Of a DNA stretch of 11,351 nucleotides, positions 6,287 to 8,452 are shown one piece after another. The position numbers and the translations under genes were made by a program. The notes beneath the pieces are model-generated. The model was given only the letters and a program-made list of their open reading frames with translations. It had not been told where the DNA came from and searched no databases. This stretch comes from Clostridiales bacterium. GTDB taxonomy: Bacteria; Bacillota; Clostridia; Christensenellales; Aristaeellaceae. Every line of letters starts with the position of its first letter. Positions within the stretch are counted from its first letter, which is position 1. The DNA lies in assembly GCA_012513735.1 (NCBI GenBank), contig JAAZBR010000200.1, forward strand, positions 1 through 11,351, read 5' to 3'.

Positions 6287-6295
6287 TACGAACTT

Positions 6296-6457
6296 ATACT
6301 GATTCCAAACTTTAACGCATCGTCGCGCTGGCACTTTTGCCCCCCTGCTGCGTCGGCTGCTTGGTCGGCGTAGCACCACTGCGCCTCCCTCATCTGCTCC
6401 TTGCAGTGAACCAAAAGCCCACACCGCTTTGGATGCATTAAAATTTTATATCAGTAT
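6296..6457 (-). mobile_element. MITE-like inverted-repeat element, copy 1 (162 bp)
   Basis: The 26-base ends (6296-6321 and 6432-6457) are inverted repeats matching at 21 of 26 positions and beginning ATACTGAT. The interior is predicted to fold further: arms around CTTTTG/CAAAAG, and GGCG...CGCC enclosing a CACCACTG core. The element shares its ends, its order of blocks and its length with the copy at 7572-7730, but lies in the opposite orientation. It fills most of the 189-base convergent space between the membrane-protein gene and the dehydrogenase gene, where no other intrinsic terminator is seen. No transposase is encoded. The ends TA-CTGA...TCAG-TA would fit insertion with duplication of a TA dinucleotide, as in IS630/mariner-type elements; this is an inference. 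Confidence 0.68.
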
Positions 6458-6475
6458 CAGGCAGTAGGCTGCGAC

Positions 6476-7441
6476 CTACGCTCGGTACCCGGACGCGTAA
6501 TCCACCCGGGCGATGAATTGCCCGCCCTCCCGCAGCGCGCGGATGTTGTGGGCGGCGATGTCGATGATCCGGTCATGGGTGATCTGCATGTGGTATTGGC
6601 CGGAAATGTGGGGCGTGAGCACCAGGTTCTGCTGCTGCCACAGGGGATGATCCGGGGGAAGGGGCTCCGGCACAGTCACGTCCAGGCCGGCGCCGGCCAG
6701 GTGTCCTGACTGCAGGGCGGCCAGCAGGGCTTCCTGGTCCACCGCGCTGCCCCTGCCCACATTGATCAGGTAGCTGTTCTGCTTCATCAGACCCAGCCGC
6801 CGTACATCCATCAGACCGATGGTTTCTTTGGTTTCGGGCAGTGACAGGGCCACCACATCCGCCTGGGGCAACAGTCGGTCCAGCGCCTCCATGGTGGCCA
6901 CCTGTTCCACGCCTTCAGGCGGGGTGCCTGCCCGGCGGCGGATGCCCGCGACCCGGGCCCCCATCAGGGAAACCAGGCGCGCAAAGCTCTGCCCGATGTC
7001 GCCCAGGCCAACCACCAGCACCCGGGCATGCTGAAGGCCACGCACCGTCCCGTGGTCTACCCAGGCGGCCTGGTGCTGGTCGTCCCGGTATTGGTGCAGG
7101 CGCTTCATCAGCATCAGCAGTACAGCCAGCATATGCTCGGATATGGCGGGGCCATAGGCGCCCGAGGCGCAGCACAGCACAGTGTCGGGCGCTGTTTGAC
7201 CCAGGGCCAGGTAGGGAGCGGCTACTCCTGCGGTGTTGAGCTGCAGCAGCCGGGCCTTTTTCATTTTGGGCAGCCGCTCCGGGGGCAGGTTGCCCACGAT
7301 CACATCTGCTGCTTCAATCTGTTCATCGGTCAGGGTTTTCACGCTCTGGCGGATGACCTCCGCCTCCGGCGCTGCCTGTCGCAGTTTTTCAAGATGCGAT
7401 TCCTCCCCCCGCATGATCACCAGCACATTCCGTATATTCAT
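6476..7441 (-). CDS. D-isomer-specific 2-hydroxyacid dehydrogenase (NAD(P)-dependent)
   Basis: This 321-residue enzyme is predicted to interconvert a 2-oxoacid and a D-2-hydroxyacid (for example hydroxypyruvate/D-glycerate or glyoxylate/glycolate). The nucleotide-binding fold has G145-L-G-D-I-G150. The catalytic triad is present: R230 in INVGRGSAVD, E259 in VPEPLP and H278 in LTPHISGQ. At the end of the second beta strand, where NAD-specific enzymes carry an aspartate, it has R168-R-R170, suggesting NADPH preference. The start at 7441 is fixed by an in-frame TGA nine bases upstream, but the AAAGGAGGG site is then 13 bases away because of a 10-bp tandem duplication (7437-7456). It is monocistronic, with its own promoter at 7485-7514, and converges on the rightward operon. 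The substrate is not assignable; phosphoglycerate dehydrogenase is less likely because no C-terminal regulatory domain is present. Confidence 0.92.
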   Translation of the reverse strand: MNIRNVLVIMRGEESHLEKLRQAAPEAEVIRQSVKTLTDEQIEAADVIVGNLPPERLPKMKKARLLQLNTAGVAAPYLALGQTAPDTVLCCASGAYGPAISEHMLAVLLMLMKRLHQYRDDQHQAAWVDHGTVRGLQHARVLVVGLGDIGQSFARLVSLMGARVAGIRRRAGTPPEGVEQVATMEALDRLLPQADVVALSLPETKETIGLMDVRRLGLMKQNSYLINVGRGSAVDQEALLAALQSGHLAGAGLDVTVPEPLPPDHPLWQQQNLVLTPHISGQYHMQITHDRIIDIAAHNIRALREGGQFIARVDYASGYRA

Positions 7442-7456
7442 AGACCTTCATAGACC
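7437..7456 (-). repeat. Perfect 10-bp tandem duplication over the dehydrogenase start codon
   Basis: In the leftward transcript GGTCTATGAA occurs twice in direct succession. Each copy contains an ATG. The outer ATG (7451-7449) lies at close spacing to AAAGGAGGG but in a different frame, and opens a 20-codon frame ending at TGA. The inner ATG (7441-7439) starts the dehydrogenase. The parent arrangement presumably had the binding site and true ATG at short spacing. Confidence 0.85.
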
Positions 7457-7484
7457 CTCCTTTTGCAGCGACTTGTACAAAAGG

Positions 7485-7514
7485 ATTCTACCCGTTCAGG
7501 TGCGGGGGTTGCAA
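7485..7514 (-). promoter_or_regulatory. Probable promoter of the hydroxyacid dehydrogenase gene
   Basis: Leftward TTGCAA (7514-7509) and TAGAAT (7490-7485) are separated by 18 bases, matching four and five of six consensus positions. The predicted start near 7478 leaves about 37 bases before the dehydrogenase ATG. It lies directly downstream of the terminator of the amino-acid ABC operon, so this gene is likely a separate unit. Confidence 0.55.
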
Positions 7515-7545
7515 CGAAAAAGAAAACGGCCTATCTTGGGCCGTT
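7515..7545 (-). terminator. Intrinsic terminator of the amino-acid ABC operon
   Basis: Reading leftward, AACGGCC (7545-7539) pairs with GGCCGTT (7531-7525) around a 7-base loop. The transcript continues as TTCTTTTT, giving a 7-bp GC-rich stem plus U-run. It lies about 185 bases past the ATPase stop codon, with the second inverted-repeat element in between. Confidence 0.8.
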
Positions 7546-7571
7546 CAGAGACTATTGATTCTATTGACATC

Positions 7572-7730
7572 ATACTGAACGAAAACATCAATGCAATTAT
7601 GGGCGAAACATTTTTGATGGCTCCGCTACACCGAAAGAACGAGGCGTAGCGGCGCTATGTTGAGTGAAAGAGGCAACGCGGAGACGCAAAAACACCCGCC
7701 CATGGAAGCATGAAGGTTTGAGTTCAGTAT
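7572..7730 (+). mobile_element. MITE-like inverted-repeat element, copy 2 (159 bp)
   Basis: The 23-base ends (7572-7594 and 7708-7730) are inverted repeats matching at 18 of 23 positions and beginning ATACTGAAC. Inner pairs continue the stem: ATGGGCG (7599-7605) with CGCCCAT (7697-7703), TTTTTG (7611-7616) with CAAAAA (7687-7692), and CTCCGC (7621-7626) with GCGGAG (7678-7683). An alternative hairpin pairs CGCTAC (7624-7629) with GTAGCG (7646-7651). Against copy 1 on the opposite strand, the first 24 bases match at 18, the last 45 at about 30 without gaps, and an inner 19-base block (7641-7659) at 15. Its right end touches the last base of the ABC ATPase stop codon. No protein is encoded. Confidence 0.68.
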
Positions 7731-8452
7731 CAGAGCACTTTTGACAGGAACCCCTGCAGCCGCTCGTTCTGTGGGTTGCCAAATAGTTCGGCCGGGGCGT
7801 TTTGCTCCACAATGACGCCCTCATCCATGAACATGACCCGGTTGGCCACCTCCTTGGCAAAGCCCATCTCGTGGGTGACAATCACCATGGTCATACCTTC
7901 CTCGGCCACCTCACGGATCAGGTCCAGCACCTCACCCACCATCTCCGGGTCCAAGGCGCTGGTGGGTTCGTCAAACAGCATCACCTTGGGGTTCATGGCC
8001 AGCGCCCGCACAATGGCCACCCGCTGCTTTTGCCCGCCCGACAGCATGTTGGGGTAGGTGTCCGCCTTGTCAATGAGACCGATGCGGGTCAGCAGCTCCC
8101 TGGCCTTTTCCTTGGCCTGGTCAGCGCTTTGCAGCTTCAGGTGGGTGGGCGCCAGGGTGATGTTTTCCAATATGGTCAGGTGGGGGAACAGGTTGAAGTG
8201 CTGAAACACCATGCCCATGCGCTGGCGCACCTTGTCGATGTCGCAGCCCTTGGCCGTGATCTCCTGCCCGTCAAACCAGATCTGGCCGCCGGTGGGTACC
8301 TCCAGCAGGTTCAGGCAGCGCAGGAAGGTGCTTTTGCCTGAGCCGGAAGGGCCGATCACCGCCACCTTCTCCCCTTGGGCAATCCGCTCGGTGATACCCT
8401 GCAGCACGTGCAGGCCGCCAAAGTCCTTGCGTAAGTCCTTAACTTCGATCAC
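7730..8452 (-). CDS. Polar amino-acid ABC transporter ATP-binding protein (GlnQ/HisP type)
   Basis: This 240-residue cytoplasmic ATPase drives uptake by the permease encoded just upstream. All motifs are intact: Walker [10 protein letters not shown] (34-42), Q-loop Q84 in [10 protein letters not shown], signature LSGGQKQR (137-144), Walker B VMLFDEP with D161 and E162, D-loop SALD and switch H194 in VTHEMGFA. The [11 protein letters not shown] segment and the length are typical of the polar amino-acid uptake (PAAT) class. It begins with GTG at 8452, overlapping the permease gene by 14 bases; AAGAGG lies 10 bases ahead of the GTG and translational coupling is likely. It is the last gene of the operon. 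The repeat element abuts its stop codon. Confidence 0.96.

Follow-up and report, generated by a model that had tools for sequence, protein, structure and literature searches.

MITE subfamilies with a 3-bp TNA target duplication in a Clostridiales genome and the recurrence of their hairpin core between different ends

Our analysis shows that a Clostridiales metagenome-assembled genome (MAG) of the family Aristaeellaceae (GCA_012513735.1) and related genomes carry a new set of MITE subfamilies that duplicate a 3-bp TNA target. The set is ordinary in kind and unusual for its core, which recurs between different ends. Two copies, A and B, lie in the 11,351-nucleotide contig JAAZBR010000200.1 that was analyzed here as a whole (“the window”) (Table 1). 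Both are nearly palindromic, about 160 bp long, and bounded by TACTGA/TCAGTA terminal inverted repeats with paired arms; they lie within the MITE size criterion of 50 to 500 bp and contain no transposase gene and no conserved frame. The best explanation is that they are MITEs that an IS5/IS1031-like transposase mobilizes in trans, a reading to which we give a probability of roughly 80%. A preliminary description of the window had proposed a non-autonomous transposon as one possibility, and this is supported by the multiple copies, the fixed ends, and the target duplication.

Table 1. Coordinates of the two elements, their flanks, and their cores in the window
Feature	Position	Strand	Remarks
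MITE copy A (subfamily A1), TACTGA...TCAGTA	6297..6456	+	39 further A copies in host genome
Left flank of copy A, TTA (target side)	6294..6296	.	
Right flank of copy A, TCA	6457..6459	.	Imperfect duplication TTA/TCA in copy A
Hairpin core of copy A	6333..6420	+	Model match at L001:1544-1631; central stem GCGTAG/CTGCGC
MITE copy B (subfamily B), TACTGA...TCAGTA	7573..7729	-	Five further B copies
TCA beside copy B, one half of target duplication (TGA on minus strand)	7570..7572	.	
TCA beside copy B, other half of duplication	7730..7732	.	Minus strand: TGA stop codon of ABC ATPase gene
Hairpin core of copy B	7609..7693	-	Model match at L001:2820-2904 minus

The preliminary description had placed the pair at 6296-6457 (162 bp) and 7572-7730 (159 bp), with ends beginning ATACTGA, in opposite orientation, and sites, lengths, ends (ATACTGA/TCAGTAT), and orientation are all borne out, as is an inner 19-base block that is identical at 15 positions. 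Two of its counts were slightly in error: the first 24 bases match at 17 positions rather than 18, and the last 45, ungapped, match at 24 (copy B reversed) or 28 (as read) rather than at about 30. When copy A is aligned over its whole length with the reverse complement of copy B, the score is 24, which was reached by none of 1,000 dinucleotide-preserving shuffles (mean, 10.9; maximum, 22). Both copies, described earlier as folding end to end, fold better than shuffled sequences on both strands (z, -5.5 to -7.3).

The two copies enclose a 2-hydroxyacid dehydrogenase gene. Copy A lies 9 bp past the stop of the preceding gene, and 18 bp separate it from the stop of the dehydrogenase gene, which is convergent. 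Copy B is on the upstream side of the dehydrogenase gene and has one end on the TGA stop of an ABC transporter ATPase gene (top scores TcyN and GlnQ, both under their cut-offs). In six further copies an end likewise coincides with a stop codon, which makes seven with copy B. Gene context, from crude open reading frame (ORF) calls that allowed 30 of 45 copies to be classified, is tandem in 16 cases, convergent in 10, and divergent in 4; the background gene pairs number 14, 4, and 3, respectively. A 709-aa frame running over one B copy was considered as an in-frame insertion into a protein and rejected, since Pfam gave no match for it and the frame is probably an artefact of antisense reading. 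Outside the elements, between copy B and the dehydrogenase gene, a terminator-like hairpin with a T-rich tail is present on the minus strand (7524-7546).

Further copies, for which the preliminary description had proposed a search, were found in the host genome, a 1.68-Mb MAG of 381 contigs that is 70% complete. Searches at E<=1 yielded 47 match rows for query A (among the 40 of 48 candidates scored) and 10 for query B. Counted whole or cut, the host copies comprise 40 of A and 6 of B, 46 altogether, including L013 with TAA/TAA flanks; besides the window copies, there are thus 39 A copies with 79 to 94% identity and five B copies with 72 to 75% identity. These copies beyond the window give the observation its principal support, and the case in which the preliminary description would have seen a local duplication or chance resemblance, that of no further copies, does not apply. 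Subfamily A divides into A1 (ends TACTGA) and A2 (ends TACTCA), and the two arms change together: at those differing arm positions that could be read in 23 A copies, 17 copies fully match the A1 or the A2 letters (6 and 11, respectively), two are A2/A1 hybrids, and four are otherwise different.

Within the family, query A matches 7 of 200 genomes, host included, at E<=1e-6 (four candidates scored per genome). The end motif, with one mismatch allowed, occurs in 45 of 300 genomes and 17 of 50 genera, with three or more matches in 15 genomes; because the reversed pattern, used as a control, also matches 6 genomes, those with one or two matches are unsure. For the 21 loci covered, the named carriers are the MAGs JAAYLK01 (Clostridiales bacterium AS15tlH2ME_231), JAKPNM01, and JASGUQ01 (the latter two Bacillota). 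In a tree of the cores, copies group mostly by genome, and A and B fall into separate clusters, each of which also holds copies of other genomes; deep support is weak.

Aberrant forms also exist. At two sites in one genome, G063 (L085:2631-2858 and L086:515-741), a 227- to 228-bp form has its central hairpin swapped for another hairpin-containing sequence. A 67-bp form (L090:960-1026, genome G000), with TAA on each side, and a 79-bp form (L093:1436-1514, G146) consist of little beyond both ends, and deletion forms of 67 and 105 bp retain the ends and exact flanks. The 227- to 228-bp form with its replaced centre and the 67-, 79-, and 105-bp forms with their ends kept show that there is no strict need for the standard centre, provided that the deletions did not follow insertion; in this respect, the form at the two G063 sites counts against the best explanation. 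A 168-bp sequence with TACTGA...TCAGTA ends and an apparently unrelated interior (G000:C71:8406-8573) may represent a different family that the same enzyme mobilizes, or may be a chance occurrence.

The target duplication is a 3-bp TNA. When the element is taken as TACT...AGTA, the flanks read TNA, and among the 40 of 45 host copies used, exact TNA-type repeats are present in 24 (shuffled mean, 7.8; maximum, 16), while the middle N is equal in 28 (expected, 10.9; shuffled maximum, 22). Two other pairs of flank positions exceed expectation by more than 5, more weakly (17 versus 10.6 and 15 versus 9.6). In other genomes, 68 end pairs were picked solely by their ends; exact repeats flank 36 of them (shuffled maximum, 30), and of the 45 copies in which both flanks read TNA, 36 have the same N. 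Duplication thus extends to the base beyond ATA/TAT, which makes TNA the duplicated target and the inner TA a part of the element. A C precedes the TNA in 16 and a G follows it in 17 of the 40 host copies. Copy B is flanked by TGA and TGA on its own strand; the unequal flanks of copy A, TTA and TCA, count against the best explanation.

These features point to a transposase of the IS5 superfamily. In the IS1031 group of IS5, the target is TNA and the repeat is exclusively 3 bp (PMC12016507), the same duplication as in the elements studied here. The elements here differ in being without a transposase. Their ends, TACT[G/C/A]A, also differ from the end given there for ISLrh of the IS1031 group, 5'-GAACCTGTCTAGTATCT. 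PIF/Harbinger elements duplicate TWA, and NuwaII, placed with them in the PHIS superfamily, prefers C|TNA|G, which resembles the C/G lean seen here; both groups are related to IS5 (PMC4482050).

A full-length element with matching ends around a transposase, which the preliminary description had proposed as a check, was looked for in draft genomes at loci of four Pfam families and at 266 scanned loci, and none was found. No similar end pair surrounds the gene at PF13340, PF01609, PF13586, or PF13359 loci, which carry single TACTGA-like words only, and the 266 loci contain no two ends that agree at 17 of 26 bases and are spaced 600 to 3,500 bp from each other. PF13340 was detected in 1 of 9 genomes, below the cut-off; PF01609 in 7 of 9, not all element-rich genomes being covered; PF13586 in 5 of 13, with 3 above the cut-off; and PF13359 in 1 of 13. 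The partner may be lost or unassembled, may belong to another transposase family, or may have different ends; that none was found in these searches counts against the best explanation.

Fixed TACT[G/C/A]A ends, the 3-bp TNA duplication, the many copies, and their mostly genome-wise clustering form the base of the following proposal, which is further supported by the joint changes of the two arms, by the deletion forms that retain ends and exact flanks, and by covariation within the core. An IS5-superfamily DDE transposase that selects targets as IS1031 does and is provided in trans would bind both ends of about 25 bp, excise the element, and join it to a staggered cut at TNA. Because TNA includes TGA and TAA, an insertion at a stop codon would copy the stop and leave the gene intact, as with copy B. 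The pairing of the core would be kept by selection, and the core may act as element DNA rather than as RNA, e.g., by folding so that the ends meet or as a site for a host factor.

The core is an imperfect hairpin of about 87 nt between the ends. In 29 diverse cores, 83.7% of cells pair, compared with 77.0% in shuffled sequences and 28 to 48% in slid versions, the latter control favoring the structure because it was derived from the same 29 sequences. Both-sided changes affect 10 of 16 pairs (shuffled, 4.7). In paired percentage, in both-sided changes, and in score, the real cores surpass all 500 shuffles; in further pair types, 23 of the 500 attain the value observed. In a set of 105 cores fitted to the model (105 of 145 rows kept, the remainder repeating these places on the opposite strand), covariation is strongest at a column pair that belongs to the structure, and columns outside the model covary as well (41-76, 94% Watson-Crick with 49 GC and 36 AT; 44-75, 92%). 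Among the column pairs that rank high, some do not follow Watson-Crick pairing and mirror the division into subfamilies.

The same core is found between other ends. In G043, a genome of the same family, 17 loci were sampled: 11 have the ends GGGCGTGTTCGAAAAAT, 2 have TACTAA (L219 and L220), and 4 are cut or unclear and without ends. The GGGCGTGTTCGAAAAAT-ended elements (L207-L217 and L066) are about 160 bp long and flanked by TA, on the left in 10 and on the right in all 12 when L066 is included. In the core tree, the GGGCG cores of this genome form one clade (0.99) apart from its TACT-type cores, with unsupported deeper placement; one G043 core, L207:179-259, is labelled TACT on this tree by sequence, without sight of its ends.

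A model built from the element family of the window, one G043 core included (R1), was run against 391 genomes of the class (11 candidates scored per genome) and matches 12 of them at E<=1e-4. Ten of these genomes belong to seven other families, with E values of 1e-7 to 1e-4; 17 listed genomes from other families of the same order gave no match among the 11 candidates scored in each. Several matches lie within palindromic elements of about 155 to 166 bp. The ends of such elements are AGGAACAACTAAATAATA in G380 (three copies; with the element start read as GGAAC, N is equal in 3 of 3 and TNA exact in 1 of 3), GTACCTTGTAACA in three genomes of one genus, and GTACAACATTCGG in G593 (three copies); for each of the latter two kinds, inspection by eye shows TA at 5 of 6 flanks. 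A second model trained on some of these elements (R2) matches 13 of 14 chosen genomes (G303 was not confirmed), with up to 76 rows, both strands counted, in G093. Around the core matches at L160, L162, L165, and L166, no convincing ends were seen. The weak core matches at L162 and L165 (G437 and G608, from two families) share an AAGGC...CGGAG-like stretch, and their genomes have 5 and 3 R2 rows; perhaps they represent a further relative. Copy A has no match in phages and plasmids, six patterns have none in viral contigs, and two other-family elements have none in plasmids. A weak core-like match without recognizable ends (75.8% over 92 bases) lies in MT838926.1:4073-4165 (L185:301-393), an unverified metagenomic scaffold named “Bacteriophage sp.”

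The core looks like a portable module. This is the most daring of our readings, and outside the family its basis is draft genomes with modest numbers of copies. More tentatively still, the real selfish unit could be the core of about 87 nt itself, an old satellite that has repeatedly acquired new ends from different transposons, IS5-like or other (five end kinds), with its pairing and the total of about 160 bp kept. Such a core may help transposition generally, e.g., through a DNA fold joining the ends of an element that is too short and stiff. We consider this possible but less likely than not.

The preliminary description had also raised a structured RNA or terminator. A structured RNA, or a transcription or processing element, could have been spread by transposition and now be kept for its RNA fold. 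The covarying internal pairs and stable folds agree with this idea. By RNAalifold, the consensus fold is better on the minus strand (-27.6 versus -9.4 kcal/mol), a modelled preference that counts against the best explanation and that an RNA role would explain too. Moreover, A-C cells, which are G-U on the minus strand, outnumber G-T cells across the 105 cores (94 versus 31) and in two of three groups (17 versus 6 and 20 versus 10; consensus fold and group counts from 55 of 62 rows). However, 75 of the 94 A-C cells are confined to two pairs, with 19 A-C versus 18 G-T in the other 14, and group A has 23 A-C versus 28 G-T cells. There is no clear orientation preference relative to genes, with 9 same versus 7 opposite orientations in tandem pairs by the crude ORF calls. 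Neither copy contains a terminator-like site, and Rfam gave no match at E<=1 across the window. The covariation therein stands, and the RNA role is otherwise unsupported; we regard it as improbable.

Mobilization by IS630/mariner, suggested earlier from TA-flanked ends, would make these copies IS630/Tc1-mariner MITEs of the form CTGA...TCAG with a TA duplication. IS630/mariner MITEs duplicate TA and resemble the present elements in their AT-rich short target. TA does directly abut CTGA/TCAG in both window copies, and other elements with the same kind of core, those with GGGCGTG ends in G043, do have TA flanks. A TA duplication does not predict that the next base outward is duplicated, as seen here in the host and elsewhere, and this matching N rules out a TA-only duplication; the TA is the element's own, and such an origin is very unlikely for these copies. 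Least credible is that a local segmental duplication involving the dehydrogenase gene region, or mere chance, made the two alike, which would suit two copies flanking a single gene in opposite orientation: A and B are different subfamilies found at many other sites, in different core-tree clusters shared with copies of other genomes (deep support being weak), and the shuffles exclude chance.

ERIC and BOX are short palindromic multicopy repeats, and Correia and RUP elements duplicate TA. The MITEs described here have different ends from these four, duplicate TNA rather than the TA of Correia and RUP, and are unlike them in having a core that recurs between unrelated ends. As in those repeats, the elements are short, palindromic, mostly intergenic, and multicopy and form stable hairpins, the traits listed for bacterial MITE-like repeats in a review; the usual explanation given there is that bacterial MITEs are deletion leftovers of one insertion sequence (PMC10969869). 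By title and abstract, no publication on the present elements was found, in a search with subscription journals mostly outside its coverage. In several families of one class, a conserved and covarying core stands between ends unrelated to one another, some of the elements having TNA-like and others TA flanks, and a deletion-leftover origin does not readily account for this. The elements give a clear record of target duplication together with coupled changes of both ends, and the purpose of a MITE interior becomes directly testable.
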